Below, one piece after another: positions 22,013-52,251 of a stretch of 64,000 nt of DNA. The notes beneath the pieces are model-generated. The model saw nothing but the letters and a program-made list of their open reading frames with translations. It did no database searches and was not told the origin of the DNA. Made by a program: the position numbers and the translations under genes. How positions within the stretch are numbered: position 1 is the first letter of the stretch; the number at the start of each line of letters is the position of its first letter. This DNA is from Alphaproteobacteria bacterium (lineage in GTDB: Bacteria; Pseudomonadota; Alphaproteobacteria; Micavibrionales; Micavibrionaceae). The stretch spans positions 1 through 64,000 of the forward strand of contig JAJRSA010000037.1 in NCBI GenBank assembly GCA_024279035.1. The letters run 5' to 3'.

Positions 22013-23089
<1,077 letters not shown>

Positions 23090-23122: not shown

Positions 23123-26100
23123 TTAAGAAAACAGGCCTCCATCGGAAAGGGAGTCTTGGGAGACGTTGCTTTCTAACCCTTCGTTAAGGGATGGATTAAC
23201 ATCTACTTCAAGTTCATTGTTTTCTTGCCTATATTCTTCTCCCTGCGTGTCTTCAACACTATCTAACCAGTTTTCGGAAGAGTTGGATGAGGACTCAGTG
23301 CTTCTGGTTTCTAGGGAAGGAGGAGGATTAAGGAGGAAGAAGAGTTCGAATTCATCGCTGGAACTGCTATCTCCATTAAGAATTTCCGTAGCAGTGGCTT
23401 GGAGGGTGAGGGTAAAATCTCCTGTGAAATTTTCTTGGGTGTGAAGTTCAAGAGACTCTAGAGAGACATCTTCAAACAACCAGACTCCTTGTCCTTGATT
23501 TTCGCCTGCGGAGAAACTGACCTCATCGGGGACATCGCTTATATTGACACTTAAATGCTCTGAACCATCCTGATCGGTTAATCCTGTGGAGATCTCGAGA
23601 AGAATTATTTCTCCTGATTGAGCTTCATACTCCGTTGTTTGGATATCAAGTTGAGGGGTATCTGCTATAGCTGTAATAGAAAGTATTTGTGTTAAATCCA
23701 CGCCTGAACGATCCCCTCCAGAATCAATAGAATCAACATGGACGTTTAATTCAATCTCACCACTAAAATGTTCAGGGGGAATGAAATGGGCTTGATTGAT
23801 GCTCTCTCCTGTTATCATCCAGCGTCCATCTTCAAGGAGAGCTCCTAAAGAAAAAGAACTCCCTTCTGGGAAACTAGAAAAAATGACTTCTAAGGTTTCA
23901 GAGCCATCTCTGTCTAAAGTGTCTGCGTTTAAAATAATGGGGATGGCATGATCTTCTTGCCCTATGTAGGCTGTCGTTGCATCGAGCGTCACACCATCTG
24001 ACACTCCTTCAAAGTTCAAAGAGAGGGCTTGGGAGGTTATCGCAACGTTTCCATTGGCCTCTATCGTATTGACAGTGACTTGTGCCTCAATGAGGCCTGC
24101 AAAATCATCGGGGGCGTGGATTTGTAATCCTGTGGTGTCTTCTGGTTGGAGAGTCCAGCTTCCATCTCCGTTATTTAACCCTGCGGACAGACGTGCTTCT
24201 TCAGGTAAACCAGAGAGAATAATGCTCATGCTTTCAGAGCCATCTTGATCCACAAAGTGCGTGTTGATATTTAAATCCATCCATTGATCTTCCATACCCT
24301 GTTCAGCAGAGATTTCTAATGTTGCCTGATCGGCCACAGCATTGACAGTAACGCGGATGGTTTGACTGCTGTGGGCTTGATCAGAATTGGATGTTTCTTC
24401 GCTGGTGGCGGTGAGTGTAAGTTCATATGTGCCATGCGCATGGGCAGGAGGGGTAAAAGTTAAACCAGCTAAAGCAGAAATGGGCACCATCCAGACTCCG
24501 TTCCCGTGATCTAAACCATCTGAGAGAAACGCCCCCTCAGGAACATTTTCAATGGTCACTGTTTCAGTGATAAATTCAGAGCCATCCTGATCACTTGTGA
24601 GCACAGAAATAGGAATAGAAATTTGAGTATCTTCTTCTCCACTCATGGGAGAGACATGAATTAACGGCGCATCGGCGACGGCTTCTAAATGGATATCAGC
24701 CACTTTTGTGGCACTATTGGGCAAGAGTCCTGATTGAATTTGAATGGCGGTATAGGTCATTTGAAGATCGCCTGCAAAATCATCTACAGGCTCAAAGCGC
24801 AAATCTCCAATTTGCTCTAAAGGCACAATCAATCCGCCTTCGAGATCATAAAACCCTAGATTAGGTTCAACGCCCTCTGGGATGTCTGTTATTAGAAAAG
24901 ATAATTGTCCCCCATCGCTATAATAGACCGTTCCATCCACATCAATTTGTGTGTCTTCATCGGTAGAGTCTCCAATTGTACGGGAAAAAGAAGGGGCATC
25001 TGAGATCTCAGGCATGGGAGGCAAGCCTCCATCTCCGCTCACAGCCATAATTTGAACAGTGAGGGGAAGATTCGTATGCGCTATATCTCCATCATTTTCA
25101 ACGGTGACCGCTGTGACTTGAATTTGGAATTCCGCAGGATCATAGGTTAGAGGATTAAGGGATACATTTTCAATATCCTCTGCTTGGACAATCCAGCGCC
25201 CTGATCCACCATAGATGCCGTGGCTCACCTGATAGATCTCTGGCACCTCTGAGAGGATGTAATAGAGCATTTCTGAGGCATCTGTGTCGACCATGCTCCC
25301 GTGAATATCAAGCGGAATATCGTGCCCTCCGAGCGCACTTGTGTCAGAGACTGTAAGCTCTGGTGCATCGGCATCTCCTGTAATATTCACAGTAAGGGCT
25401 TGTGTTGAATTCTGTGTGTCTCCGTTTATATCTACAGCTGTGGCCGTCACACGTAACGTAAAGTTTTCATTGCTATGCTCTGGGGGTGTGATTTTTAAAT
25501 TAAGCAATTCATCCTGAGTTAATAGATACGACCCGTCTCCATTATTTATCCCTGCAGATAATTCAGCGCCTTCGGGGATATGTTCAATGAGAATTGAATT
25601 CCCTATGGTTTCAGATCCATCACTGTCTGTTGTGTTGATATTAATATCTAAAGAGAGTGCCGTATCTTCCAAACCTGAGGCGCCTCCTGAAATATGAGGT
25701 GCATCCGCAATGGCCTCTATTTCAACAGAAAGCTGTGTGTTAAAGACGTCGCGATCTCCGTCATTTTCTTGTGCGACGGCGCGGATATCTAAAAGAATCT
25801 CTCCACTAAAATCTGTAGGGGGAATGAGTGTTATATGTTGAGCGTCTTGCGCGCTGTAAGAATACGTCCCAGCACTGATATAAGTCCCACTTGGAGAAAG
25901 AACAACGCCGTCTGGAATATTACTAATCACCACGCTTAAATTTTCCGAACCATCTAAATCTGTCAGATATGCTCCCAATTCTAGATCAAGAGGTGTGTCT
26001 TCATACCCTACACGATCAGACAGGTCTAATTCTGGCCTATCCGCAACCCCTCGGACAAAGACAGGGAGGTCAAGAGAAGTTTCAAACGTAAAGATGTCTC

Positions 26101-29100
26101 CATCACTTTCTGTGACTACTCCCGTCACAGAGAGCGTGAAATCTTCATTGGAATTAGGTGGAGGGGTGATAGTTAACGCAGAAATATCTTCTTCTAAGAC
26201 AACCCAAGATCCATCAACGGTGTCACTTCCATGGCTAAATTCTGTCCCTTCTGGAATATCGGATATAACGACAGAAAATTGTTCAGAGCCATCTTGATCA
26301 GCAAGGCTATGGCGAATATAGAGTTTAATCTCATTGTCTTCAAACCCTCTGGCCTCACGAACAGAAAAAGACCGTGGCGTATCTGCCACACCAGACACAG
26401 AGACTTTAAACTCTGTTTCACTAAAGACGCGATTGCCATCATTTTCTCTCGCATACGCACGAAATGTAAGATTAAGCTCTCCACTGAAATTTTCAGGCGG
26501 AATAAGTTGAGCGTCTTCCGCTTGGGCTTCATTATTAAAGCGCCAATGCCGTCCTCGCCCAATCGCACGTCCTGTTGTAAAGCTCCCCCCTTCAGGGATA
26601 TCTCGGACATCAAAATATAAGCGCTCCGACCCATCAAGATCGTTCAATGCGCCTCCAAAATCCATATCAATGGGGGTGTCTTCAATACCAAGCGTATCTT
26701 GTGCATAGACATTAGGCTTATCTGCAACGCCTTTGACATCAACTTTAAAACTCTGCGTATTGAGGGCGGTGTCTCCATTCTCATCTGTGGTTTCAACGCT
26801 GACTTTTAAATGAAAATCTTGATTGCTGTTATGGGGCGTCCGCAGTGTTAAATTTTCTAAATCTGCCTGTGTGAGACGGAGATCTCCGGTTGAATTGAGG
26901 TCTCCGTGAGAAAAGACCACGCCCTCAGGAATATCAGAGAGTGTAATTCCTGTAATGGATTCAGAGCCATCTTGATCCACAAGCCCAACATCAATGTTAA
27001 CGGAGATGTCTTGATCTTCATATCCAAATGATGTGGCTGTAATTTCTGCCTGATCAGCGACGGCCTCAACATGAACGCTAAAATTTTCTGTTGTGAGCGC
27101 AGTATCCCCATCATTTTCAGTCGCAAGGGCGCTGAGCGCCATATTAATCTCTCCACTAAAATGCTCAGGAGCGATGAAGGAGAGATAAGCTAAATCTTCT
27201 GCGCTAAATTGCCATACACCATCTCCTTGAGAGACACCCGCTGAAAACTGTGCACCATCGGGGACCTCTGTGATCTCATAGACCCAAGTTTCAGAGCCAT
27301 CTTGATCCCCTGATCCCACAGAAATATCAAGAGAAATGGCTTGATCTTCAGCGCCTGACGTATCCTCAATGCTCACAGTGGGCGTATCGGCAACACCTGT
27401 TATTTTAACGGCTTGGTATTGAACAGTATGGGCTGTGTCTCCATTCTCTTCTGTTGAGATTGCATCCACTTTAAGGATAATATCTTCGTTACTATTGGGA
27501 GGAGGGACAATTTGTAACCCCTCTAAATCTTCTGAAGATAATGTATAAGACCCATCCTGATTTAAATCTCCAGCGGTTAACACGGCGCCTTCTGGAATAC
27601 GGCTTAAAACAAAAGAAAGTGTTTCAGACCCATCTGTATCTGTGAGGTCTCCTGAGATATCAAGATCAATGGCTTGATCCTCAAACCCTCTGGCTGTTCT
27701 AAGTTCTAAAAGGGGTGTATCTGCGACTGCTTCTATTTGAATATTAAATGGCACAGAGTCAAAAGCCTGATCTCCATCGTTTTCTGTTGTGATCACAGTA
27801 AAGGTCAAGGAAATCGTTCCACTCATATTCGGAGGAGGCGTAAATGTGAGCTGGGAGAGTTCATCTTCTGTTAAGCTGTAAGTGCCATCTCCATTCTCTA
27901 GCCCTGCCGACAGCTGTGCGCCGTCGGGGATGTTTTCAATCACATATCCTAAAACTTCAGAGCCATCCGTATCAATCAATTCTCCTGATAATCCATGTCC
28001 AATCTCTATGCTGGTGTCTTCTTGCGTGATGATTGTATCCAAAGGAATTTCTGCCATTTTCATGTAAGAAAAACTCTGCATTAAAAAATCAGAGCTATCC
28101 ATGGGAATAAAGCGAGGATTAATATCCTCTACATTGCTGTAAGGATGCGCTTTAAAGATAAGCTTATTAAAGGCTTGATCCATGAAATTGATGTTTAATG
28201 TCTGATCGTCTGGTGCTGTAAAATCAATATGCCCGACTTCCTGCCCATCGCGATAAGCCGTCACCGTTCCATTTTCTATCCCGCCTGTCCAATCCTGAAA
28301 GAAGTAAGAAAATTGTGCCTTGGCATTCACAATTAAATCATCAAATTGTAAAATTAACTCTTCAGACACGCCAACATTTGGATCATACCCCGTCTCCGCA
28401 TCAATCCATGCATTGTCTGTATCTCCGCCAGCGCCAAATCCTTGGTCTCCCTGTACGCCTACATAGTCAAGATCTGCGTTTGTCAATGTCCCGTCTTCGT
28501 TCACATTCCGCGCGAGAACTTGAAATCCTTGATCTGTGCTACGGGCGTTTTCAGCGGTGATCTGGCCTTGCCCAATGGTATGCATTCCACCAAACTGAGC
28601 CGTTGCAATGGGGTGATCAGCAACGCCCGTCACATGAACCTCTAAGGGCACGGTTGTTGTTAAAGATTGCCCATCCGACTCTGTGCTTGTGACACTTAAA
28701 GAAAGAGTAAAATCTTCATTGCTATGTAACGGCGGTGTAATGGTAAGAGTCTCAAGATCTGAGAGTGTTAAATCATAAGAGCCATCAGGATTTTCTGTCC
28801 CTGCCGACACGATTGCCCCATCAGGAATATTAGAGAGGGTCACCAAGCTTAATGTTTCTGAGCCATCCTGATCGACAAGAGACGCTTGAATGTCTAGGGC
28901 AATCGCACTGTCTTCCCGTCCACTTGCAGAGGTCACACTCATATGAGGGGCATCGACAACAGGATCAATCACGACAGATAAAGAGAGGGTCTGTGTAGCT
29001 GTTTCTCCTGTCATCTCTGTGCTCACAGCACTCACATTCAGAGAAAAATCTCCACTATAATGCGCGGGCATAGAGAGGCTTAAATCATCTAAATCTTGCG

Positions 29101-29755
29101 CCGAGAGAATCCATAGGCCATGCCCTTGGTCAGATCCTGCAGAGAGAATCCCTCCCTCTGGCACATTTGAAATTTGAATATGGAGAGTCTCTTGCCCGTC
29201 TTGATCATTAAGGGCGGCTTCAATATGAAGAGCAATAGCGGTATCTTCCATACCTTGCACCAACTCAACAGACAAAGATGGGCTATCTGCTTGCGGAATA
29301 AAGGACGTCTCTTCTCCTGCAATAACAGCACTGTCTGGATCATCATGTGTCCCCGTCAAAGGAGGAGGAGCGTCTGCCCCTTGTCTTGTATTCAAATCTA
29401 CAGGAGAAACTGTATATACATCTTGAAACATATGAGAGGGGTGAATCGAGGAGGCATATTCTTCCCCAGAAAAAGAAAGATCTTCTTCACTATAATCCCC
29501 TCCAAGAAGATCACTCTGATACACGCCCGTCACGTCTTGTTCAAAATTCTCTTCATTCATTAGATAGGTCTGAACACTCTCACACCCTCCTTGTGTAATA
29601 TAGGAGTCAGAAAAAATATCCTTATCAAACCCAATCAGAAGTGTTTGGATATCCCCCCCAACCTCAAAGGCTTCAAACACCCGCCCATCAAGGCTATGTG
29701 TTCCCACATCCTGCAAAACGGTAAAAGAATCAAAACTGCTTTTCTCCACACTCAT
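23123..29755 (-). CDS. Giant repetitive surface protein, probable type I secreted adhesin
   Basis: The product has about 2210 residues from the ATG at 29755; a GTG at 29776 adds seven residues but sits against its own purine stretch. No Sec signal peptide. An acidic N-terminal region of some 155 residues precedes 16 repeats of about 110 residues with consensus [AS]D.P..-G.ED..I.L-L.D.DGSE.L-IP.G..FS-AG...GDG.W.L..-P..FSG (or NSNEDF)..L.V-E.DGD, typical of cadherin-like or Ig-like modules of bacterial adhesins. The Asp-rich loops suggest calcium binding. Repeat 3 carries an inserted domain of about 190 residues. The last 60 residues are Ser/Glu/Asn-rich and end DSLSDGGLFS, without RTX nonapeptides. 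A type I secretion set starts 5 kb away, making it the likely exporter (inference). Confidence 0.9.
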   Translation of the reverse strand: MSVEKSSFDSFTVLQDVGTHSLDGRVFEAFEVGGDIQTLLIGFDKDIFSDSYITQGGCESVQTYLMNEENFEQDVTGVYQSDLLGGDYSEEDLSFSGEEYASSIHPSHMFQDVYTVSPVDLNTRQGADAPPPLTGTHDDPDSAVIAGEETSFIPQADSPSLSVELVQGMEDTAIALHIEAALNDQDGQETLHIQISNVPEGGILSAGSDQGHGLWILSAQDLDDLSLSMPAHYSGDFSLNVSAVSTEMTGETATQTLSLSVVIDPVVDAPHMSVTSASGREDSAIALDIQASLVDQDGSETLSLVTLSNIPDGAIVSAGTENPDGSYDLTLSDLETLTITPPLHSNEDFTLSLSVTSTESDGQSLTTTVPLEVHVTGVADHPIATAQFGGMHTIGQGQITAENARSTDQGFQVLARNVNEDGTLTNADLDYVGVQGDQGFGAGGDTDNAWIDAETGYDPNVGVSEELILQFDDLIVNAKAQFSYFFQDWTGGIENGTVTAYRDGQEVGHIDFTAPDDQTLNINFMDQAFNKLIFKAHPYSNVEDINPRFIPMDSSDFLMQSFSYMKMAEIPLDTIITQEDTSIEIGHGLSGELIDTDGSEVLGYVIENIPDGAQLSAGLENGDGTYSLTEDELSQLTFTPPPNMSGTISLTFTVITTENDGDQAFDSVPFNIQIEAVADTPLLELRTARGFEDQAIDLDISGDLTDTDGSETLSFVLSRIPEGAVLTAGDLNQDGSYTLSSEDLEGLQIVPPPNSNEDIILKVDAISTEENGDTAHTVQYQAVKITGVADTPTVSIEDTSGAEDQAISLDISVGSGDQDGSETWVYEITEVPDGAQFSAGVSQGDGVWQFSAEDLAYLSFIAPEHFSGEINMALSALATENDGDTALTTENFSVHVEAVADQAEITATSFGYEDQDISVNIDVGLVDQDGSESITGITLSDIPEGVVFSHGDLNSTGDLRLTQADLENLTLRTPHNSNQDFHLKVSVETTDENGDTALNTQSFKVDVKGVADKPNVYAQDTLGIEDTPIDMDFGGALNDLDGSERLYFDVRDIPEGGSFTTGRAIGRGRHWRFNNEAQAEDAQLIPPENFSGELNLTFRAYARENDGNRVFSETEFKVSVSGVADTPRSFSVREARGFEDNEIKLYIRHSLADQDGSEQFSVVISDIPEGTEFSHGSDTVDGSWVVLEEDISALTITPPPNSNEDFTLSVTGVVTESDGDIFTFETSLDLPVFVRGVADRPELDLSDRVGYEDTPLDLELGAYLTDLDGSENLSVVISNIPDGVVLSPSGTYISAGTYSYSAQDAQHITLIPPTDFSGEILLDIRAVAQENDGDRDVFNTQLSVEIEAIADAPHISGGASGLEDTALSLDININTTDSDGSETIGNSILIEHIPEGAELSAGINNGDGSYLLTQDELLNLKITPPEHSNENFTLRVTATAVDINGDTQNSTQALTVNITGDADAPELTVSDTSALGGHDIPLDIHGSMVDTDASEMLYYILSEVPEIYQVSHGIYGGSGRWIVQAEDIENVSLNPLTYDPAEFQIQVTAVTVENDGDIAHTNLPLTVQIMAVSGDGGLPPMPEISDAPSFSRTIGDSTDEDTQIDVDGTVYYSDGGQLSFLITDIPEGVEPNLGFYDLEGGLIVPLEQIGDLRFEPVDDFAGDLQMTYTAIQIQSGLLPNSATKVADIHLEAVADAPLIHVSPMSGEEDTQISIPISVLTSDQDGSEFITETVTIENVPEGAFLSDGLDHGNGVWMVPISALAGLTFTPPAHAHGTYELTLTATSEETSNSDQAHSSQTIRVTVNAVADQATLEISAEQGMEDQWMDLNINTHFVDQDGSESMSIILSGLPEEARLSAGLNNGDGSWTLQPEDTTGLQIHAPDDFAGLIEAQVTVNTIEANGNVAITSQALSLNFEGVSDGVTLDATTAYIGQEDHAIPIILNADTLDRDGSETLEVIFSSFPEGSSFSLGALLEDGRWMITGESINQAHFIPPEHFSGEIELNVHVDSIDSGGDRSGVDLTQILSITAIADTPQLDIQTTEYEAQSGEIILLEISTGLTDQDGSEHLSVNISDVPDEVSFSAGENQGQGVWLFEDVSLESLELHTQENFTGDFTLTLQATATEILNGDSSSSDEFELFFLLNPPPSLETRSTESSSNSSENWLDSVEDTQGEEYRQENNELEVDVNPSLNEGLESNVSQDSLSDGGLFS
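23330..29290 (-). repeat. Array of 16 protein-coding repeats in the giant gene
   Basis: Sixteen units of about 330 bases. Repeats 1-10 alternate in their fifth strand: odd ones read (F/M/Y)SG(E/D/T) and even ones SN(E/Q)(D/N). The segment joining a unit to the next also alternates for most units: even units end in (T/K/R)GV-AD, several odd ones in EA(V/I)-AD. Units 11-16 break this order. The nucleotide copies have diverged, so this is an old array. Confidence 0.85.
28040..28620 (-). other. Inserted non-repeat domain within repeat 3 of the giant protein
   Basis: About 190 residues between the ADHP start of repeat 3 and its TQEDTSIEI continuation. It has GFQVLARNVNEDGTL, then LDYVGVQGDQGFGAGGDTDN, LILQFDDLIVNAKAQFSYFF and GTVTAYRDGQEVGHIDF. 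The strand-rich, Gly/Asp-loop pattern suggests a lectin-like or jelly-roll beta sandwich, perhaps the ligand-binding head of the adhesin. The fold is inferred from pattern only. Confidence 0.55.
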
Positions 29756-29794
29756 ACCAGAAAGTGTCTGGTACACCCCTTCGTCTCACAAGAG

Positions 29795-34742: not shown

Positions 34743-34780
34743 TTCTCTAGGGCTAACTTGCTCTATGGTTAATTAGAGAA
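34743..34780 (+). promoter_or_regulatory. Inverted repeat overlapping the start of the secretion operon
   Basis: TTCTCTA (34743-34749) and TAGAGAA (34774-34780) pair perfectly, and inner CTAAC/GTTAA pairing is also possible. The last base is the A of the first ATG. As RNA it would hide the AGAG ribosome site and start codon. As DNA it could be an operator. Confidence 0.45.
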
Positions 34781-36546
34781 TGGAACGTTTTTTCATGACA
34801 ACACAACTCTCATCACGTGTGCACGTGCCTGTCTATAAAGAAGGGGGGCTGATGTCTTTGATGACATGGAAATATTGGAGACAGATACAATCTACACGTC
34901 AAGTCAAAGGGTTACCCCTATTTGATTTGATTGGAAGTACCTTTCTGATTAATGTTTTAGGACTGGTTTTGCCGATTATGATGCTCCAGATTTATGATCG
35001 GATTATTCCCAATGAAGGGACGGCGACTCTTACTTTCCTTGTGATTGGCGTCTCTATCGCTATTCTATTTGATTCTCTCTTGCGGATTGCACGCTCATAT
35101 TTGACAGCGTGGTCGGGAGCTGTGCATGATTATGCGCTCAGCACGCATTTAATGGATAAAATGTTCCAAATTTCACAGGGGCAATTTCACAAGAAATCTG
35201 TGTCTGAGCGTTTGTCTCAACTCCAAGCCTCTGGAAAATTACGAGAATTTTACTCAGGTCAGAGCTTTTTGACGATGTTGGATCTGCCGTTTTCTTTCAT
35301 CTTTTTAGGGGCTATTTTTTATATTGGCGAGATGATGGTCATTGTGCCTATGACAGGGATTGCCTTGATTGCACTGGCCACATGGATCAATAGCGCCCGC
35401 ACAAAAAATTTAGACTCTGATACTGAGTCTTTAGAAAATAGCCGTATGAATGCAGTGATTCAAACGCTTAAAAACATCCAGACGGTCAAAGGGCAGGCGA
35501 TGGAAAATGTTTTGGTGCGCTCTTACGAGACCAACAAAGCCACGCACGGAAAAATGTCCTTTCAATTGGGACAAGTTCAAATGCAAGGGGCTGTCTTTGG
35601 GCAAGCCATTGCAACACTGACATTGATTGCAACCGCCGCGCTTGGGGCTGTTTTTGTGATGCAAGGCATGATGACAATTGGGGGAATTGCCGCGTGTGTG
35701 TTGTTGTGTGGTCGTGCCGTCCAGCCTGCACAAAAAGCCATTGGTTTATTGGGGCGTATTGGGGTAACACGTAGAGCTTTAAACACTGTTGAGGAAATTA
35801 TTAATATTCCCGAACAGAAAAAAATTGTTGTCCTTCCAGCAACAGCAGCGGATGCTGTGGGGCAGATTCATATGAGACAAATGGGCTTTTCTTACAGGCG
35901 AAATCGCCCGCCTTTGTTTCAGGATCTGTCCCTCAGTGTTCAGCCTGGAGAGGCCATTGCGATTCAAGGGGATACAGGAAGCGGGAAATCCACATTGCTT
36001 TCGCTTATTATGGGGCTATATCGTCCAACACAAGGGGAAATCACGATTGATGGCCATCAACCCCACAAAATTGATCAAAGTAGTTTTACACCGGGGGTGG
36101 CGTATCTGCCTCAATATTCTGAGATTATTCATGGGACAATCTTAGAAAACATTACGCTGTTCCGAGAAGACACACACCGCCAACAAGCCCGCCATGTTGC
36201 ACAAGTTCTGGGGCTTGATGATGCTATTTTGCGTTTGCCTCATGGGTATAATACAGTGATAGGGATGGGGCAGGCGAACCCTTTGCCAGATGGGATGCTC
36301 AAACGGATTGCAATTACACGTGCTTTACTTGAACCCACCCGCTTAATCCTTTTTGATGAGGCTGATGCCTATCTCGATGCGGAAGGACGCAATCGTCTCT
36401 ATGGTTTGATGAAAGATCTTATCGGAAAATGTACCCTCATCATGGTGAGTAAGAATCCCTCTATCTTTCATCTCACAAATAGATGTTACCGCCTTGAGAA
36501 AGGTACTCTTGTGAAACATGTTTCACAGCGTGCGAGTGTTGTTTAG
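34780..36546 (+). CDS. Type I secretion ABC exporter, subunit 1 (no C39-like domain)
   Basis: The product has 588 residues from the ATG at 34780; the ATG at 34795 is an alternative. The transmembrane domain spans about 45-330, beginning LPLFDLIGSTFLINVLGLVLP, the start typical of type I secretion permeases (LapB/PrtD/HlyB kind). The nucleotide-binding domain has Walker A GDTGSGKST at 397-405 and Walker B LILFDEAD with D526-E527. The signature position reads LPDGM (502-506) rather than LSGGQ, and the switch His is S557. With the next gene it probably forms a heterodimer. Its cargo is likely the giant repeat protein. Confidence 0.88.
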   Translation: MERFFMTTQLSSRVHVPVYKEGGLMSLMTWKYWRQIQSTRQVKGLPLFDLIGSTFLINVLGLVLPIMMLQIYDRIIPNEGTATLTFLVIGVSIAILFDSLLRIARSYLTAWSGAVHDYALSTHLMDKMFQISQGQFHKKSVSERLSQLQASGKLREFYSGQSFLTMLDLPFSFIFLGAIFYIGEMMVIVPMTGIALIALATWINSARTKNLDSDTESLENSRMNAVIQTLKNIQTVKGQAMENVLVRSYETNKATHGKMSFQLGQVQMQGAVFGQAIATLTLIATAALGAVFVMQGMMTIGGIAACVLLCGRAVQPAQKAIGLLGRIGVTRRALNTVEEIINIPEQKKIVVLPATAADAVGQIHMRQMGFSYRRNRPPLFQDLSLSVQPGEAIAIQGDTGSGKSTLLSLIMGLYRPTQGEITIDGHQPHKIDQSSFTPGVAYLPQYSEIIHGTILENITLFREDTHRQQARHVAQVLGLDDAILRLPHGYNTVIGMGQANPLPDGMLKRIAITRALLEPTRLILFDEADAYLDAEGRNRLYGLMKDLIGKCTLIMVSKNPSIFHLTNRCYRLEKGTLVKHVSQRASVV

Positions 36547-36548
36547 GT

Positions 36549-38858
36549 ATGGTTGTCAAAAAAGAAAGTCATATGACCAATCCAATTCCAGAAGAGCTAG
36601 AAGGAAATTACTTTTTAAAAGTCGCCAATGTGACGGCGGCGCAGACATTTTTGCCGAGCCTTGTCGATCGGACTCATCATGGAGAGACGGCAGGAAACGG
36701 AGACCCTCATCAATTGCAGGAGGCCTTGATTGCCAGTGGGCGGTTGGGCTGTCCAGATGATATTTCGGCGTATGCGTTGGCGTTGACCCCTCTTTTGATG
36801 GCGCTGAACTGGAAGGGGCAATTTCGACAATTATGTGAGGCGTTACCTCAAAGCCATGTGACGATTACAGAAGCAGAGTTGCGCAACATTCTCGCACGTC
36901 TTGATTTTTTGAGTGATAAAATCACTGTGCCTCTCAATAAGCTAGATGAACGCTTAATTCCATGTGTCTATACGGCCAAAGACGGAACGATTTATAGTGT
37001 CTTGGCACGAGATGAATATGGGACAACGGTGTTTAATACAGATCTCGATCAAGGGGACATTATTGAGCATAGTGAAAAGATTAAGGGAGAGGCGATCTTG
37101 TTTTATGATCGTCATGACCCATACATCCCTGATCATCTTCAAGACAGATTGCCGCGCGCAAGCGATAAGGGAAAATGGTCAGGCTATGTTGTGCGCCGTT
37201 TTTCAGGGCTGATTAGGCAAGCGCTCACGATGTCTTTGATGATTAATCTTTTAGGATTAGTATCTCCGTTTCTTGTGATGGCGATTATGGGAATTGTGAT
37301 CTCAACGCAAAACCTTAATACATTGATGTGGTTTTGCCTCGGAGGAAGTGTGGCTGTGGGGTCAGAAATTATCCTACGCTGTTTGCGAGGAAAGATTATG
37401 GGGACGATTTCTGCACGGCTGGATTATATTTTTTCTGTGTCTCTCTTTGATAAAATTTTAAAATTGCCTTTATCTTTTACAGAGAATTCAACGGTCTCGG
37501 CGCAAATGGCACGGCTGAGAGATTATATATCTGTGGGACAATTTATCAGTGGGCCTTTGATGATGTCTTTGCTGGATCTTCCTTTTATTCTGATTTTACT
37601 GGGCGTGATGGCATTGTTTTCTTTGAAGATGGCAGGGTTAACCATTTTAGCAATCGGTGTGTTTGCGCTCATTGCTGTGTCGATGAAAAAGATCATTCGA
37701 CGTACCATTGTCAATGGGGCAGAGGCAAATATCCGAAAACAGGAAATGATTTTGGAAACACTGGAAAACAGAGATATGTTGCTCCGCTCTAATGGTGTGG
37801 ACTCATGGACAGCGCAATATCAAGAATGTTGCGGACGGGCGGCCAAGGCGAGTATGCGGACATTCTTGTTGGGCTCTATCTTGGAGACATCAGGTTATAC
37901 CATGACAATGCTCGCGGGTGTGGCCATTGTGAGTGTAGGAATTTTTGATGTGATTGCAGGGACAATGCCGATAGGGGGATTGATTGGTTCTGTTATATTG
38001 CTCTGGAGAATTATAAATCCGATACAAAGCGTTTTGCCTAATTTGCCTCGCATTGAACAAATACTCTCGTCCCTTAAGCAAATTGATCGCTTGATGTACA
38101 TGGACGCGGAACATGAGGGGCATATTAAAACGCATGCGTTGCAACGCTTTAAAGGGAATATATCGGTGTCGCGCGTGTCTTTACGCCATACACCTGAATC
38201 TGAGCCCGCATTGTTGGGGGTAAGCTTTGAGAGTAAAGCAGGGGAGATGATCGCGATTACAGGCAAAAATGGCTCTGGAAAATCAACATTCTTTAAAGTG
38301 TTGATTGGCCTCTATCGTCCACAAGCAGGGCTTATTCAAATTGATGGGATGGATATGCGTCAGATGAATCCTGCGGAACTGCGCCATGCTGTTGGCTATA
38401 TGCCTCAAAAATCAGCGCTTCTCCCGGGAACGATTGCGACAAATTTGCGCTTGGCAGATCCCACTGCAACAGAAAAAGATATGCGTGCTGTGATGATTTT
38501 GGTACAAGGCTGGGAAGCGATTAATGCGCTCCCTTATGGGCTGGAGACTCATATTAGTGATGACAAGTCCCATGAGATTTCAGATTCATTGGCGCAAAAA
38601 ATAGCGTTGGCACGCACCATGATTGGACGTCCCGGAATTTTATTAATTGATGAGATTGAAGGGGTGTTCACCGCCAAAGAAAAAGAGACCTTTTTAACAC
38701 ATTTCAAAAATATGGAAGATCGTCCGACGATCTTATTTTCAACACAAGATGAAAGTATTATCCGTGCCTGTGATCGTGCCTTTGTCTTTAGCCGAGGAGA
38801 GTTGATGCCTCTCTCAGAGATACCTGTTTTGGAGAATGAACTAACGGTGGAGATGTAG
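36549..38858 (+). CDS. Type I secretion ABC exporter, subunit 2 (with C39-like domain)
   Basis: The product has 769 residues and starts two bases after the stop of subunit 1. Residues 60-200 resemble the catalytically dead C39-like domain of LapB-type exporters (LQEALIASGRLGCPDDISAY..., GTIYSVLARDEYGTTVF), with no protease Cys, so it would hold rather than cleave substrate. Membrane region about 225-500. Walker A GKNGSGKST is at 572-580 and Walker B has D701-E702. The signature reads ISDSL (677-681) and Q733 replaces the switch His. The C39-like domain supports a large unfolded substrate. No TolC-type outer-membrane gene is in the window. Confidence 0.87.
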   Translation: MVVKKESHMTNPIPEELEGNYFLKVANVTAAQTFLPSLVDRTHHGETAGNGDPHQLQEALIASGRLGCPDDISAYALALTPLLMALNWKGQFRQLCEALPQSHVTITEAELRNILARLDFLSDKITVPLNKLDERLIPCVYTAKDGTIYSVLARDEYGTTVFNTDLDQGDIIEHSEKIKGEAILFYDRHDPYIPDHLQDRLPRASDKGKWSGYVVRRFSGLIRQALTMSLMINLLGLVSPFLVMAIMGIVISTQNLNTLMWFCLGGSVAVGSEIILRCLRGKIMGTISARLDYIFSVSLFDKILKLPLSFTENSTVSAQMARLRDYISVGQFISGPLMMSLLDLPFILILLGVMALFSLKMAGLTILAIGVFALIAVSMKKIIRRTIVNGAEANIRKQEMILETLENRDMLLRSNGVDSWTAQYQECCGRAAKASMRTFLLGSILETSGYTMTMLAGVAIVSVGIFDVIAGTMPIGGLIGSVILLWRIINPIQSVLPNLPRIEQILSSLKQIDRLMYMDAEHEGHIKTHALQRFKGNISVSRVSLRHTPESEPALLGVSFESKAGEMIAITGKNGSGKSTFFKVLIGLYRPQAGLIQIDGMDMRQMNPAELRHAVGYMPQKSALLPGTIATNLRLADPTATEKDMRAVMILVQGWEAINALPYGLETHISDDKSHEISDSLAQKIALARTMIGRPGILLIDEIEGVFTAKEKETFLTHFKNMEDRPTILFSTQDESIIRACDRAFVFSRGELMPLSEIPVLENELTVEM

Positions 38859-39018: not shown

Positions 39019-40455
39019 ATGAGTGTACAAGAGAAAGACAAAATAGATATGAAAATGGAGACACAAGAGAGAAAAGGGGCCGTGATGAAGGGCACAGTGA
39101 AACATTTACGCACAGTGCAAAAAAATACACTCGCGATGCGACGTAAAGATAATCAATTGGCGTATTTGTCCCATGCTGTGTTTTTGGAGGAAGCCGAAAA
39201 CCCGCGCTTAATCCGTCGCGCGACGCAAGTCACGATGTTAACATTAGTCTTGTTTCTCGCATGGGCGACGCTTACGCCTGTGGATGAACTCTCAAGTGGT
39301 TCCGGAGAAATTATACCGAGCAGTAATATTCAACAGGTTCAGCATTATGAAGGGGGCATTATCGAAACCATTCATGTGGAAGATGGACAATTTGTAGATA
39401 AAGGGACTGTGTTGGTGAGTTTAAATCCCGTAGGCGCAGAATCTGATCTCGAATCGATGCGGGTCGAGGGTGTGGCCTTGATGCTTGAAAGTGAGAGATT
39501 GCGTGCTTTTATTGGTCAACGGGATGTGGATTTTTCTGCGTTTGAATATGATTATCCCGCGCTTGTGGAAGACCACGAGAAAATTCTCACAAGCACAATT
39601 ATTGATCATAAACAGAAAGCGGAGACACTTAATCGTCAAGTTGCACAAGAAGATGCAAAACTCTCAGGCTTAAAAAATAGAGTGGAAAGTACCAGAGAAA
39701 AACACAATATTGCCAAAGACGAATTAGAGATCAATGAAACGCTCTATAAGAAAGGGCATAGTTCTCGGGTCGGTTATCTGGATGCCAAAAAAGAATTTAC
39801 ACGCACCAAAGAAAATGTAGGGGTGTTGATCTCTGATATCAAAGTTATAACGCAATCTTTGGAGCAAGCTAAAAGCGAACGCGCACAGCTGGACACAAAA
39901 TTAAGCCAAGAGGCCTATGAAGATTTGGCAAGCGTTGAACAAAAATATGCCTCTTTAATTGAAAAAATTAAAAAACTGGAAGACCGTTCCTCTCGTTTGG
40001 ATGTGGTCTCTCCTGCACGCGGGATTGTCAAAGGCTTAAATGCAACAACCATTGGAGCTGTCGTGGCTCCAGGGGGGGATATTGCAGAGATTGTGCCTGT
40101 TGATAAGAGTCTCATTGTGGAAACAAGGCTCTCGACCCGTCATATAGGACATATTGAAGTCGGGCAATCCGTTAATGTCAAAGTGGATTCTTATGATTTT
40201 GCACGCTATGGGGGCTTGCAAGGCACTCTCAAGAAAATTTCAGCGACAACGTACCGTGATGAAAAAACGAATGAACCCTATTATAAGGGGACAGTAGAGC
40301 TGTCTCAAAACTATGTCGGACAGCGCGCTGATCGTAACCCTATTTTACCAGGGATGACCGTCACGGCGGATGTAATTACAGGAGAAAAATCCGTTATGGC
40401 CTATCTCCTTAAACCCGTCGCTCTGGCTGCAGATACGGCATTTTCAGAGAGATAA
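39019..40455 (+). CDS. Type I secretion membrane-fusion protein (HlyD/LapC family)
   Basis: The product has 478 residues. A cytoplasmic N-terminus of about 70 residues precedes one membrane helix (VTMLTLVLFLAWATL). The first half-lipoyl motif is GSGEIIPSSNIQQVQHYEGG, then IHVEDGQFVDKGTVLVSLNP. Residues 145-320 are a long alpha-helical coiled coil (K/E/Q-rich). The second half-lipoyl is VVSPARGIVKGLN with PGGDIAEIVP, and the end is NPILPGMTVTADVITGEKSVMAYLLKP, the family ending. It bridges the ABC exporter to an outer-membrane channel. Confidence 0.93.
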   Translation: MSVQEKDKIDMKMETQERKGAVMKGTVKHLRTVQKNTLAMRRKDNQLAYLSHAVFLEEAENPRLIRRATQVTMLTLVLFLAWATLTPVDELSSGSGEIIPSSNIQQVQHYEGGIIETIHVEDGQFVDKGTVLVSLNPVGAESDLESMRVEGVALMLESERLRAFIGQRDVDFSAFEYDYPALVEDHEKILTSTIIDHKQKAETLNRQVAQEDAKLSGLKNRVESTREKHNIAKDELEINETLYKKGHSSRVGYLDAKKEFTRTKENVGVLISDIKVITQSLEQAKSERAQLDTKLSQEAYEDLASVEQKYASLIEKIKKLEDRSSRLDVVSPARGIVKGLNATTIGAVVAPGGDIAEIVPVDKSLIVETRLSTRHIGHIEVGQSVNVKVDSYDFARYGGLQGTLKKISATTYRDEKTNEPYYKGTVELSQNYVGQRADRNPILPGMTVTADVITGEKSVMAYLLKPVALAADTAFSER

Positions 40456-40476: not shown

Positions 40477-40785
40477 ATGACTTTAAATATAGAAACAACA
40501 CAAGAGAACGGACAGCATACTTTTACGCTTCAAGGAGATCTAGACGCTGCAAGTGCTCCCACACTCCGCCAATCCCTCCAACCTACCTTAGCTTCAAATC
40601 CGTCCTCAGTGGTTCTCGATTTTGGAGGCGTAGAATTCTTGGACTCAACAGGCATTGGTGCTGTTATTCAGGCCTATAAACACATGTCCAAAGCAGGTGG
40701 AAAATTTAAGCTGACTGGTATGAAAGGTCAGCCTTTGCAAACATTTACATTTTTAAAGCTCAATCACTTAATCGAAGCGGTGTGA
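40477..40785 (+). CDS. STAS-domain protein (anti-sigma factor antagonist type)
   Basis: The product has 102 residues, a single STAS domain: FTLQGDLDAASAPTLRQSL, VVLDFGGVEFLDSTGIGAVI and AGGKFKLTGMKGQPLQTF. The phosphorylatable Ser in DSTGIG is kept. It is 21 bases behind the HlyD gene on the same strand, with AAAGGAA as ribosome site. Proteins of this type take part in partner-switching control with HPK-like kinases and phosphatases, none of which is nearby. The link with a secretion operon suggests control of adhesion, an inference from position. Confidence 0.88.
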   Translation: MTLNIETTQENGQHTFTLQGDLDAASAPTLRQSLQPTLASNPSSVVLDFGGVEFLDSTGIGAVIQAYKHMSKAGGKFKLTGMKGQPLQTFTFLKLNHLIEAV

Positions 40786-47650: not shown

Positions 47651-47737
47651 GAAATTTTTTAAAAAACCGCCCAATTTTATAGCCTTGCCCCGTGAATACT
47701 CTTGAAGACCAAAAAAATCTTAAGGAGTACAAGGACG

Positions 47738-48490
47738 ATGACGACGATATCACAACTCTCAAATAACCCAAATCTCTTTGCAGAGACAGGGCAACGCGTG
47801 ATTACATCGAATAATGTTGATATTAATGGAGATGTAGCGAAAACAGAGAAAGAGGAAGGAGAAGAGCTTCAGCAGCAGTTCTTACAAATTCTTTTGACTC
47901 AGCTTCAAAATCAAAATCCGCTCGATCCTGTGGATACAACAGAATATACAAACCAGTTGGTTCAATATTCCTCTTTGGAACAACAAATTGATACAAACCT
48001 ACGTTTAACTAACATTTTAAATACATTGCAGGTGAGTAGTTCCTTTAGTGCCTTTTCCTATATTGGAAATGATGTTGAAATTGCAACAAATCAGACGTCT
48101 GTTCAAAATGGTGAGGCAGATTGGAATTATTCTCTAAAAGGGAATGCAAACAGCGTGGAAGCTAAGATTTTTAATCAGAATGGGACGTTGGTCTATAAAG
48201 AAGATCTTGGCGGGCAGGCAAGTGGAAGCTATGGCTTTAGCTTTTCTCCTGATGAAGCCCTTGTCCCTGTGGCAGAAGGAGATGTACTGACATTCTCCGT
48301 TACCCCTAAAACAATTGAAGGTATCGATATTGAAACAGACATTGTCACCAACGTGACTGTGAGTTCTGTAGAAACAGGTGCGTCAGGCGATATTATCCTT
48401 CGCGCAGGTGGTCTGTTTTTCGGTGTGAATGACATCTTAAAAATTTCACAATCAAGCGCTGACACAAATAGTCCAGACAACGCCACATAA
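47738..48490 (+). CDS. flgD: Flagellar hook assembly protein FlgD
   Basis: The product has 250 residues from the ATG at 47738, with AAGGAG upstream; an earlier non-ATG start is not supported. The core FlgD motif is LQQQFLQILLTQLQNQNPLDPVDTTEYTNQLVQYSSLEQQ (about 45-85), followed by the tudor/Ig-like hook-cap region with SGSYGFSFSPDEALV. It forms the hook cap on which FlgE polymerises. It begins the operon flgD-flgE-X-flgN-flgK-flgL. Confidence 0.95.
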   Translation: MTTISQLSNNPNLFAETGQRVITSNNVDINGDVAKTEKEEGEELQQQFLQILLTQLQNQNPLDPVDTTEYTNQLVQYSSLEQQIDTNLRLTNILNTLQVSSSFSAFSYIGNDVEIATNQTSVQNGEADWNYSLKGNANSVEAKIFNQNGTLVYKEDLGGQASGSYGFSFSPDEALVPVAEGDVLTFSVTPKTIEGIDIETDIVTNVTVSSVETGASGDIILRAGGLFFGVNDILKISQSSADTNSPDNAT

Positions 48491-48514
48491 AGAGTTTAAC
48501 AAAAGGAGTTTATT

Positions 48515-49825
48515 ATGAGTATTACAACAGCAATTTCCTCGGCCGTGTCGGGTTTAAGAGCACAGGGAGCGCAACTCGCTGCTGTGGCAGAAAACTTGGC
48601 GAACTCAAGCACGATTGCATTTAAAAATAGAGAGATTGATTTTAACTCTCTGGTTGTCGGAAATACAACGCGGAGTGGGTTTTCTGGAGGAGGGGTGATC
48701 TTTAGAGCCCATCAAGAGCTAGAATCTCAGGGATTGTTAAGAACAACGGATTCAGCAACGGATATCAGTTTGAATGGACGAGGATTCTTTGTAGTGAGTG
48801 ATGACACCAATAATCAACCCTCAGGATTTAATTTCTCACGAAATGGAAATTTCTCAAAAGATCAAGATGGTTTCCTTGTGAATTCTGAAGGCATGTTTCT
48901 CATGGGACAACGAACAGATGATACAGGTGCTATTATTAGCTTGGCCTCGAATGATTTAACGTCTGTTGAGCCTGTGAATGTGGGGGCTGTGGCAGGAACA
49001 GCGCAAGAGACGACTATTGTTCGCTTTGATTTGAATTTACCCGCCGATTCTGCAACGGGATCTACGTTTACAAATGCTTTTCAGATTTTTGATGCACTTG
49101 GGATTGCGCATCAAATTACAACACAGTGGACGAAGAATGGACCTAATGATTGGAGCGCTGTCTTTGGAACACCAGTACAAGTGGATACTGTTCCTCCGGT
49201 TCTCTCCGCTGATTACTTAGTTGGTGGGTTTAATGTTCCAACAGCACAAATTGATATTACCTTTAATGGAGATGGCTCTATTGCAACGTTCAACCCTAAT
49301 CCACCGTCAATTACATTGGATAATTTCGTGGCTGGGGCTCTTTCTCCACAACCCATCACACTTGATCTTGGAACGATAGGGTTAACAGATGGAGTGAGCC
49401 AGTTTGCAGGAACAACCGCAACGCCAGATATTGAAATTTTCTTTATTGATCAGGATGGAGTGCGTTTTGGACAATTGTCTTCTGTTGAAATCAACAATGA
49501 AGGCTTGGTTGAGGCTATTTTTGAAAATGGCGTGGTTCTCCCGATTTATAGAATACCTGTGGCAACGTTTCAAAACCCACGTGGATTAACCCATATTAAT
49601 GGAACAATCTATGATGAAGCGGATGCTGCTGGAATTCTTGTTCTTAAGCGCCCAGGGCAAGGGGACGCAGGAGATATTGTCGCCAACTCCCTTGAGCTGT
49701 CGACTACAGACACGGCGGAAGAGTTCAACAAGATGATCATTTCTCAACAAGCTTATGCGGCCAATGCGCAAGTGATTAGTACGGCTGATGAATTGTTTGA
49801 TGAATTACTCGCCGCGGTGAGATAA
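48515..49825 (+). CDS. flgE: Flagellar hook protein FlgE
   Basis: The product has 436 residues. N-terminal rod/hook motif AISSAVSGLRAQGAQLAAVAENLANSSTIAFK, then SLNGRGFFVVSD in the D1 part. The C-terminal D0 helix ends EEFNKMIISQQAYAANAQVISTADELFDELLAA. The middle holds the variable hook domain. Strong AAGGAG ribosome site. Exported through the flagellar type III apparatus to build the hook. Confidence 0.95.
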   Translation: MSITTAISSAVSGLRAQGAQLAAVAENLANSSTIAFKNREIDFNSLVVGNTTRSGFSGGGVIFRAHQELESQGLLRTTDSATDISLNGRGFFVVSDDTNNQPSGFNFSRNGNFSKDQDGFLVNSEGMFLMGQRTDDTGAIISLASNDLTSVEPVNVGAVAGTAQETTIVRFDLNLPADSATGSTFTNAFQIFDALGIAHQITTQWTKNGPNDWSAVFGTPVQVDTVPPVLSADYLVGGFNVPTAQIDITFNGDGSIATFNPNPPSITLDNFVAGALSPQPITLDLGTIGLTDGVSQFAGTTATPDIEIFFIDQDGVRFGQLSSVEINNEGLVEAIFENGVVLPIYRIPVATFQNPRGLTHINGTIYDEADAAGILVLKRPGQGDAGDIVANSLELSTTDTAEEFNKMIISQQAYAANAQVISTADELFDELLAAVR

Positions 49826-49856
49826 TCGTTAAGAGCGATAGGAAGGAGCGTCTGAG

Positions 49857-50168
49857 ATGGAGCATATAGATTATTTTTTGAACGCGTGGAGAGAGTCTCA
49901 AGATATAGAAGCTTTTCTCCTTCAAAAGATTGAGTTGCCAGACTCTAAAGTCATCCGTGATCATCTCGATACTCTGTCTCCATCAGAGAGAGAGTCTGTT
50001 GAGAAAGAGCTTTCCTCGATAGTCCTTAAATTGGAATCACATGCCGAGGAGATGGCGCAGGGCTTAAAAGAGACGCAAGACCAACTCTCAAACGCCCAGA
50101 ATGCACAAGAAATGTGTGTCTCCTATGAGAAAGCAGAAGATATAAATAAAGGAAAAACGGACAAATGA
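49857..50168 (+). CDS. Unknown small helical protein in flagellar operon
   Basis: The product has 103 residues, almost wholly charged and predicted helical, with a coiled-coil-like part (ERESVEKELSSIVLKLESHAEEMAQGLKETQDQL). It starts MEHIDYFLNAWRESQDIEAF. It has an AAGGAG ribosome site and its end overlaps the next gene by four bases (ATGA), so it is translated within the operon. It may be an export chaperone or regulator by analogy with its neighbours; no family recognised. Confidence 0.7.
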   Translation: MEHIDYFLNAWRESQDIEAFLLQKIELPDSKVIRDHLDTLSPSERESVEKELSSIVLKLESHAEEMAQGLKETQDQLSNAQNAQEMCVSYEKAEDINKGKTDK

Positions 50169-50509
50169 AACACGAGACGCAAAACAGAGTAGAAAGCCTC
50201 CAAAGAAGTACACGAGATCTTCTTGGATTTGTGCGTGTGGAGAATGCTGTTTTGATGGATCAGGGGCACTTAACTTTGCGAGGTCTTTATCTTCAAAAAA
50301 TGATTCTCCTTAAGGATTTAGAAGAAAGAGCCGAAGCTTTATCTCAAGAAAAATCAGATGAAGATATTGCAGAGTGCTTGTTGCTTTTGCGTCAGGTGCA
50401 ACGCGAGCTTAAAATAAATGCGGTGCATCATCTAGAAGCCCTTAAAAAGGGACGACAGGCTCATTATTTTGAGGATGAGTGCGATGAGCAAGAAGGAGGT
50501 TATGTATGA
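50165..50509 (+). CDS. flgN: FlgN-like flagellar export chaperone
   Basis: The product has 114 residues, all-helical in appearance (MKHETQNRVESLQRSTRDLLGFVRVENAVLM). It matches FlgN in size, in its helix-rich charge pattern and in its place just ahead of flgK. FlgN escorts the hook-junction proteins FlgK and FlgL to the export gate. The start and stop codons overlap both neighbours by four bases (ATGA), indicating translational coupling. The assignment leans on context. Confidence 0.6.
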   Translation: MKHETQNRVESLQRSTRDLLGFVRVENAVLMDQGHLTLRGLYLQKMILLKDLEERAEALSQEKSDEDIAECLLLLRQVQRELKINAVHHLEALKKGRQAHYFEDECDEQEGGYV

Positions 50510-52251
50510 CACTTTCTCTCTTAAGCGCGCTTCAGACGTCTTTTCGGGGTCTTGAAGCCACAGAACAACAGATTAAAATCGCTGCGCAGAATATTACGAA
50601 TGCAGACCGCCCAGGCTATACGCGTAAATCCTTTCAACCTGATTATATTACAGGGAATTTTGGAACAATTCCTGTCGGGGGGACAGTTGTTAGTGCGTTG
50701 AACAAATCTCTTCTTGAGGGCGTGATTGATGATAAAACTGTTGTTGGACAAAAAACTGTTGTCGCAGAATATCTTGAAAACTATGTTCGCCGTACGGGGA
50801 ATGTCGTGTCTGATTTTTCTTTAACAAGTACATTGAACGATTTTTTTGCACATTTAGATCTCTTGGCCATTGCGCCTGAAAATCGTGCTCAAAAAGAACA
50901 AATTGTGTCGGATGCAGAAGTTATAACGCTGTATTTAAGAGATTTATCCGACGGCATTCAAAAGCAAAGAACAGAAGTCGAGCAAGAAATTGATAAGACA
51001 ATCGATCGGATTAATCAATCTCTTGCAACGATCAGTAATATCAATGACAAGATTATTCGTACAACAGGCAAAGATGATATCGCCTTGGCAGAGTTTGAGG
51101 ATGTCCGCGCGATAGAGCTTCAAAAACTTGCTGAAGAAATTGATATAACCTATTATTTTGATGAGCGTAATCGTGTGCAGATCTATCATCCCAGTGGACA
51201 GCCTATGTTGTTGCACAGAGATATTCCTCTTACATTTGATCCTGTGGCAACGTTGACGGGAACTGTCACTTACCCAGGAGGGCTGAATCCAATTCTTGCC
51301 AATGGGGTTTCTGATGTGACTCAAAATCTGAGAGGCGGAAAGCTCGCAGGTTTGGTTGAGTTACGAGATGTCTCTCTTGTTGAAGAACAAGAAAAGCTGG
51401 ATGAATTTGCGGTTCAGCTCAGAGATACCATTAATGCTGTTCTTAATACAGGGGCTGCGCGTCCTCCTCGAAATCAATTGGTTGGAGAGCAAGGATTTGC
51501 AGGAGGAGATCCCTTTGCAGGTGTTGGGACTATACGGATTGCTGTCACAGATAATAGTGGCATCGTGCAAAGCTTTACAGATTTGAATATAGGGGGCTTT
51601 GGAACTGTTGGTGCTGTGGTCGGTGCCATAAATGGGTTGGCAGGAATTACAGCCTCTCTCTCTGTGAGTGGAGAGCTTTTGGTGACCTCGACCGATCCCA
51701 CACGAGGCGTGTCTATTAACGAGATGACCAGTAGTGTCGGAGGCAGTAATTTAGGGTTTTCCCATTATTTTGGATTGAATAGCATGTTTACAGGGATTGG
51801 AGCAGAAGATATCACCATTTCTGATTATTTGCTCGCCGACAGTGATTATTTGGCATTGGGACAACTTTCAAATTCTGTCACGCTTGCGGTTGGAGATACG
51901 GGCATTACGCTTGGAGATGTTTCTGTCACTCGCGCGCTATCGACGGCGCTAGATACGACAGTCACCTTTAATGCGGCAGGAGATTTCGCGGCACAAAATG
52001 TGTCTTTGCGTATTTACGCAGAGAGCATTATGGCGCGTGCGGCTCTGAAGGCCTCCATTGCACAAGATGAATTGGATTCTGCCCAAATCATCTTGCAACA
52101 GGAAGAAGATTTTATGAATAACATCACAGGGGTCAATATTGATGAAGAGACTGCCATCTTATTGGAATTAGAGAGCTATTACCAAGCCTCAGCACAAGTT
52201 ATAGCCGTCATTAAAGGATTGTTCGAAGAACTCATGGCGGCTGTCCGATGA
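50506..52251 (+). CDS. flgK: Flagellar hook-filament junction protein FlgK (HAP1)
   Basis: The product has 581 residues. N-terminal D0 helix LQTSFRGLEATEQQIKIAAQNITNADRPGYTRK, then FAHLDLLAIAPENRAQKEQIVSDAE in D1. The C-terminal helix is DEETAILLELESYYQASAQVIAVIKGLFEELMAAVR. It joins hook and filament together with FlgL. The central part (about 280-480) is variable. Confidence 0.94.
   Translation: MTLSLLSALQTSFRGLEATEQQIKIAAQNITNADRPGYTRKSFQPDYITGNFGTIPVGGTVVSALNKSLLEGVIDDKTVVGQKTVVAEYLENYVRRTGNVVSDFSLTSTLNDFFAHLDLLAIAPENRAQKEQIVSDAEVITLYLRDLSDGIQKQRTEVEQEIDKTIDRINQSLATISNINDKIIRTTGKDDIALAEFEDVRAIELQKLAEEIDITYYFDERNRVQIYHPSGQPMLLHRDIPLTFDPVATLTGTVTYPGGLNPILANGVSDVTQNLRGGKLAGLVELRDVSLVEEQEKLDEFAVQLRDTINAVLNTGAARPPRNQLVGEQGFAGGDPFAGVGTIRIAVTDNSGIVQSFTDLNIGGFGTVGAVVGAINGLAGITASLSVSGELLVTSTDPTRGVSINEMTSSVGGSNLGFSHYFGLNSMFTGIGAEDITISDYLLADSDYLALGQLSNSVTLAVGDTGITLGDVSVTRALSTALDTTVTFNAAGDFAAQNVSLRIYAESIMARAALKASIAQDELDSAQIILQQEEDFMNNITGVNIDEETAILLELESYYQASAQVIAVIKGLFEELMAAVR

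Follow-up and report, generated by a model that had tools for sequence, protein, structure and literature searches.

The LSGGQ signature is the defining motif of ATP-binding cassette (ABC) ATPases, and in an ABC dimer each ATP is held between the Walker motifs of one subunit and the signature of its partner. In the haemolysin exporter of Escherichia coli, the HlyB/HlyD complex comprises three ABC dimers and six HlyD, and the C39-like domain of HlyB lacks peptidase activity, takes part in substrate recognition and is the main specificity determinant (PMC11026475). In the MARTX system, the ABC exporters RtxB and RtxE are both required for secretion of the giant protein (PMC3034196). The reviewed heterodimeric exporters with a degenerate site retain one canonical site; the degenerate site holds ATP as a hinge and the canonical site hydrolyses (PMC7756269). 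Here we describe a pair of ABC exporter subunits, A and B, encoded in a 64,000-nucleotide stretch from an alphaproteobacterium of the order Micavibrionales (positions 1 to 64,000, forward strand, of contig JAJRSA010000037.1, assembly GCA_024279035.1), referred to as the window. The pair seems to exemplify a variant type I secretion exporter that lacks LSGGQ in both partners, is widespread and has apparently escaped description. A literature search whose coverage left most subscription journals outside returned no account of this family.

Nucleotide-binding motifs of the paired subunits

The genes for A and B are both intact open reading frames (ORFs) separated by 2 nt. As in other type I secretion exporters, each subunit fuses a transmembrane domain (TMD; PF00664) to a nucleotide-binding domain (NBD; PF00005). 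The motifs were assigned by alignment with canonical exporters of the same and related genomes.

34780-36546, + strand: subunit A (subunit 1), 588 aa, a TMD-NBD half-transporter lacking the N-terminal C39-like domain
35968-35994, + strand: Walker A of A, GDTGSGKST, residues 397-405, with Lys403
36283-36297, + strand: signature position of A, LPDGM for the canonical LSGGQ, residues 502-506, second Gly retained (Gly505)
36343-36366, + strand: Walker B of A, LILFDEAD, residues 522-529, with Glu527
36439-36462, + strand: H-loop of A, IMVSKNPS, with Lys558 in place of His
36549-38858, + strand: subunit B (subunit 2), 769 aa, C39-like domain followed by TMD and NBD
38262-38288, + strand: Walker A of B, GKNGSGKST, residues 572-580, with Lys578
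38577-38591, + strand: signature position of B, ISDSL, residues 677-681, neither Gly kept
38637-38660, + strand: Walker B of B, ILLIDEIE, residues 697-704, with Glu702
38736-38756, + strand: H-loop of B, FSTQDES, with Gln733 in place of His

The initial annotation had reported intact Walker A motifs and Walker B glutamates in both subunits, together with the signatures LPDGM and ISDSL, and the alignment bore out each of these assignments. It had also placed Ser557 of A and Gln733 of B at the H-loop histidine. The histidine is indeed missing from both subunits and Gln733 was correctly identified. In A, VSKNPS aligns with ITHKGA of a canonical exporter from the same genome, which puts Lys558, rather than Ser557, at the His position. 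The alignments with canonical exporters revealed neither LSGGQ nor the H-loop His elsewhere in A or B, and the non-consensus reading stands. The Q-loop Gln is present in both subunits. The D-loop Asp, which the annotation had not mentioned, is missing from B (GVFT).

The best family match of both subunits was TIGR03375 (LapB/LssB type), at 375 bits for A and 392 bits for B; neither reached the cut-off of 693 bits. Scores for the HlyB family, TIGR01846 (259.5 and 276 bits for A and B), also fell short of its cut-off of 725.55 bits. Moreover, A and B both lack the combination of LSGGQ and H-loop His expected of a LapB/LssB-type exporter, which nearly all control proteins possess. The match to TIGR03375 begins at profile position 18 in B versus 151 in A. 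In an AlphaFold2 model of B (predicted local distance difference test, pLDDT, 82), residues 73-766 aligned to residues 8-700 of HlyB (8dck), the top structural match (Z 31.2). Based on these start positions and this alignment, the C39-like domain is assigned to roughly residues 52-190 at the N-terminus of B and is absent from A, in agreement with the earlier assignment of this domain to subunit 2 only.

Distribution, ancestry and selection

When 142 genomes of the window's order were searched and the loci fetched, about 29 proved to have the A-B-HlyD gene order. More widely, we combined a class-wide search, in which 42 of 385 alphaproteobacterial genomes were positive, with a search of named genomes. 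Carriers beyond the order include Thalassospira, Magnetospirillum and relatives, Kordiimonas, Kiloniella, Caenispirillum and Emcibacter-like metagenome-assembled genomes (MAGs). Outside the Alphaproteobacteria, the pair occurs in Gammaproteobacteria (Methylococcaceae, Amphritea), Deltaproteobacteria (Desulfocapsa) and one Stygiobacter MAG. Below, loci and genomes carry L- and G-numbers, respectively; L037 is the locus of a sister species and G000 is the window's genome.

The arrangement of the genes is conserved. Measured from the end of A, the start of B falls between -1000 and +100 nt in 108 of the 110 loci scored, the two genes overlapping by 4 nt in 70, and HlyD follows A-B in nearly all loci with long enough contigs. 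At seven loci (L134, L160, L161, L182 (partial), L201, L203 and L207), A and B are fused into a single chain, mostly of about 1300 aa, with relatives of Magnetospirillum among the carriers. The distance matrices of A and B were correlated with r = 0.93 over 139 pairs; the permutation maximum was 0.06. At L125 (6325-8019, on a contig shared with L173), an in-frame TAA splits A into two ORFs, possibly a pseudogene or a sequencing error.

In a FastTree phylogeny with the motif columns masked, A and B together formed one clade with a support of 1.0. B was monophyletic (support 1.0), and both subunits were apart from LapB, HlyB and PrtD, the last of which formed its own clade (0.97) separate from A. 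Support for an A-only clade was 0.08 in the motif-masked tree and 0.63 in the other tree; as the monophyly of A is unsupported, A may be paraphyletic. Pairwise ratios of nonsynonymous to synonymous substitution (dN/dS) within Thalassospira and Magnetospirillum were about 0.07-0.28 for A and 0.03-0.28 for B, these closer pairs being used as dS is saturated between the window and the sister species. Both genes are thus maintained under purifying selection.

A search for the gene pair beside HlyD and giant repeat genes recovered the A-B-HlyD order repeatedly, with giant cadherin/RTX genes adjoining about half of the loci as a lower bound. Together with the A+B clade and the fusions, this supports the earlier proposal of a distinct exporter subgroup for giant adhesins in which the two subunits have split roles. 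Judged from sequence, A-B is a real subgroup of type I exporter, predicted to be heterodimeric, with the putative catalytic consequences set out below.

State of the motifs across the clade

The motifs were tallied in 150 A rows and 144 B rows, about 138 of the latter being readable at the signature; these are rows and not independent species because the locus sets partly overlap, some genomes being present in both. LSGGQ did not occur in any of the 150 A or the approximately 138 readable B subunits, the closest sequence noted being VSGGV in one A. Leu, Val, Ile, Met or Phe stands at the signature Gln position of every readable B and every readable A, except for one A with Thr, and Pro takes the place of the signature Ser in 123 of the 150 A rows. 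Because this trait is common to every member of a large clade, chance is excluded as its origin. With no canonical signature in either partner anywhere in the clade, the one canonical site that characterizes degenerate-site heterodimers is absent.

The remaining motifs differ between the partners. The second signature Gly is retained in 145 of 150 A versus 62 of 138 B, the Walker A Lys in 131 A versus 140 of 141 readable B, the Walker B Glu in 83 of 148 A versus 135 of 137 B, and the H-loop His in 54 A versus 102 of 137 readable B. The control exporters (alphaproteobacterial LapB, HlyB and PrtD) nearly all have S[G/A]GQ, the Glu and the His. Two clear exceptions among them, L246 and L280, lie outside the A-B clade and have the signatures LTSEI and LATGL, respectively, the latter exporter also having Asp in place of Glu and Asn in place of His.

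Degeneracy is most pronounced in the window's order. There, A subunits usually carry Asn at the Walker B Glu position and lack the Q-loop Gln, and the H-loop His of B is usually replaced by Tyr. Several A subunits of the order (L058, L062, L063 and L066) are without Walker A, which is kept in the B subunits of the same loci. Loss of the H-loop His from both partners is mainly a trait of this order; the window pair is among its least degenerate, yet both His are gone. The initial claim that neither composite site is canonical thus applies throughout the clade to the signature but not to the H-loop, where most readable B subunits keep His. Similarly, the claim that both subunits keep the catalytic base holds for the window but not for the bulk of its order, in which Asn is the usual residue of A.

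Accessory genes and candidate substrate

Further features of the locus are as follows.

23123-29776, - strand: cadherin/Ig-like repeat protein, 2217 aa (tandem-95 NF012211, 88.3 bits against a cut-off of 90; Cadherin_4; Big_9)
39019-40455, + strand: HlyD-family periplasmic adaptor, 478 aa (TIGR01843, 380 bits against a cut-off of 208.65)
40477-40785, + strand: STAS-domain protein of the anti-sigma-antagonist type (PF01740, 5.5e-20)

The adjoining adaptor gene, above its family cut-off, is the HlyD-type partner expected of a type I secretion locus. No TolC-like gene lies beside A-B in the window; a TolC-type gene (PF02321) does so in many loci of the order.

The 2217-aa repeat protein contains one Cys, ends in SDGGLFS and has no RTX nonapeptides. 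At the sister-species locus L037, A shares 4 nt with the gene of a cadherin/Ig-repeat protein of 2039 aa, which is 51% identical to the 2217-aa protein over 1967 aligned residues. Because this homologue overlaps the A gene, the 2217-aa protein is probably the cognate substrate of A-B. In other members of the order, A is usually preceded by a gene for an Asp/Gly-rich protein of 590-1120 aa, whose N-terminus is conserved around LDADQYxAEDLDGVTE and whose C-terminus is GGLFG-like; three proteins of this kind that were scanned had no Pfam match. Examples directly before A occur in L050 (11662-13611), L040 (6959-9496) and L045 (11508-14195). A GGLF-type C-terminal end, a pattern defined after inspection, was present in 27 of 29 candidates (28 operon-adjacent upstream proteins and the window giant) versus 5 of 303 other ORFs, and is a candidate for the uncleaved C-terminal secretion signal of a type I substrate. 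Beyond the order, two partly overlapping locus sets contain cadherin/RTX giants adjoining A-B, at no fewer than 19 of 36 loci in one and 35 of 68 in the other; these counts, made by seeded phmmer, are lower bounds, with many contigs ending inside repeats.

The STAS gene is probably the final gene of the A-B operon, and an orthologue occupies the same position in the sister species (L037 6074-6379, E 2.5e-34). A second STAS-like ORF of weak similarity comes after it (5546-5887). In L050, of the window's order, the place of the STAS gene is taken by a response regulator with a HATPase_c_2 domain, followed by a hybrid histidine kinase, and ORFs resembling these come after HlyD in many other loci of the order. 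The presence of regulatory genes after HlyD suggests partner-switching control of secretion. The window also contains the flagellar hook genes FlgD, FlgE and FlgK and MreB (47702-52251 and 22049-23089), and the host is for this reason probably flagellated and rod-shaped.

Proposed mechanism and alternative explanations

We infer that A and B pair as the halves of an ABC exporter that is an obligate heterodimer. Together with the adjoining HlyD and a TolC-type outer-membrane channel whose gene lies elsewhere in the genome, they would form a type I secretion system devoted to a giant repeat adhesin, in which the site composed of the Walker motifs of B and the signature of A hydrolyses ATP. We consider this reading probable. 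The single C39-like domain, carried by B, probably binds or recruits the unfolded substrate, by analogy with HlyB. The B-Walker/A-signature site (LPxG-hydrophobic, second Gly kept) appears to be maintained by selection and is the likely working site because the Lys and Glu of B are near invariant and the second Gly of A is kept in almost all rows. Hydrolysis at this site is expected to be slow and limited to one site, with altered contacts to the gamma-phosphate. The opposite site, composed of the Walker motifs of A and the signature of B, seems to be decaying and would act mainly as a structural ATP clamp.

Several observations weigh against this reading. In the window, the favoured site is short of the Ser and Gln of the A signature and of the B His, three residues normally needed for fast hydrolysis, and A retains Walker A and the Glu, so the asymmetry is weaker there than in relatives. 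The window giant gene is about 5 kb from A-B on the opposite strand and is not operonic, and the GGLF-type ending was set as a pattern with the sequences already in view. Finally, an AlphaFold2 model of the natural A-B fusion L160 (a 1200-aa truncation, six sequences) had a pLDDT of 59.7 and a predicted template modelling score of 0.32 and was not used.

The missing residues could instead mean that, in the window's order, neither site usefully hydrolyses and that ATP binding alone, or extracellular folding and pulling of the adhesin, powers a slow, one-way export. Consistent with this, the B subunits of the order are without His (mostly Tyr, here Gln), the A subunits are usually without Glu and Q-loop Gln and in a few cases without Walker A, and both signatures are non-canonical. 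However, the almost invariant Walker A Lys and Walker B Glu of B are hard to account for without catalysis, and we consider a complete lack of useful hydrolysis unlikely. A broader proposal is that A-B represents a separate lineage of type I exporter in the Alpha-, Gamma- and Deltaproteobacteria, an obligate heterodimer motor without LSGGQ, and that in the window's order, where both His are gone, ATP binding rather than fast hydrolysis may drive adhesin export; we put this forward as a tentative and rather doubtful possibility. The motif losses, the 1.8 Mb genome and the stop-split A of the relative L125 might also be taken as signs of an ordinary LapB-type exporter in decay, its genes becoming pseudogenes in a reduced genome. 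This is highly improbable: about 150 loci, among them some in 4-6 Mb genomes, have fixed the same type of substitution, dN/dS is well under 1, nearly all frames are open and a single clade reaches far past the order.

Other explanations turn on a second exporter. Contig 7 of G000 (L069 7711-11545) encodes a canonical LapB-type exporter with LSGGQ and His and with its own HlyD and TolC-like gene, the latter an upstream ORF assigned by sequence. The initial annotation had raised the prospect that a third, canonical exporter is the true partner; the exporter exists, but the A-B fusions and the genomes devoid of a LapB-type exporter weigh against a partnership. Specifically, four near-complete A-B genomes (G199, G414, G447 and G522) have no LapB-type exporter over the cut-off, their remaining exporter matches scoring like MsbA-type proteins (the one that was read out was MsbA-like), so A-B apparently needs no third exporter. 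These genomes also speak against A-B being an accessory or structural dimer within a multi-dimer pump in which the canonical LapB-type dimer does the work, as might be imagined from the three HlyB dimers of the HlyB-HlyD complex (PMC11026475), the apparent weakness of both A-B sites and the canonical exporter of the same genome. That exporter is at a separate locus with its own HlyD, A-B has an adjoining HlyD and, in many loci of the order, its own TolC-type gene, and we regard an accessory role as quite unlikely. Alternatively, A-B might export other cargo, such as a small peptide, leaving nearby giants to the canonical exporter. The position of the window giant, 5 kb off on the opposite strand, and the availability of a second exporter would fit. 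By contrast, the HlyD above the cut-off of its type I class, the C39-like domain in B, the operonic giant gene of the sister species and the giant cadherin/RTX genes adjoining A-B in other families all favour an adhesin, and a different cargo appears improbable.

Significance and comparison with known systems

Because both partners lack the signature although the Walker residues of B are near invariant, the family offers a natural experiment on the contribution of the signature Ser and Gln. A-B also tests whether one weak site can power the export of proteins of 2000-3000 residues, and cultured environmental carriers (Thalassospira, Magnetospirillum) render the system testable. The pair is, in addition, a marker for giant-adhesin loci, which annotation pipelines may overlook because both subunits score under the family cut-offs.

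Among known systems, LapB/LssB (TIGR03375) resembles A-B as the top family match and in the C39-like domain (of B), the HlyD partner and the large repeat-adhesin substrates. In contrast, A-B scores under the family cut-off, comprises two distinct subunits versus one, has lost the signature Ser and Gln from both and forms a separate clade. HlyB is the structure that the B model matches best, along nearly its full chain (Z 31.2), but it forms homodimers in which both sites are canonical and each of the two subunits contributes a C39-like domain, whereas the A-B pair has one such domain. PrtD-type exporters (TIGR01842) share the domain layout of A, without an N-terminal C39-like domain, but keep S[G/A]G[Q/E] and form their own clade apart from A. 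TAP, TmrAB, TM287/288, BmrCD and Pdr5 likewise have unequal composite sites, one better preserved than the other; unlike A-B, in which neither partner has a canonical signature, they keep one canonical site (PMC7756269). The nearest known type I system with two ABC proteins is that of MARTX, in which RtxB and RtxE are likewise encoded by two different ABC exporter genes accompanied by an HlyD-type adaptor; compared by literature description, it differs from A-B in taxa, substrate and gene order (B-D-E).

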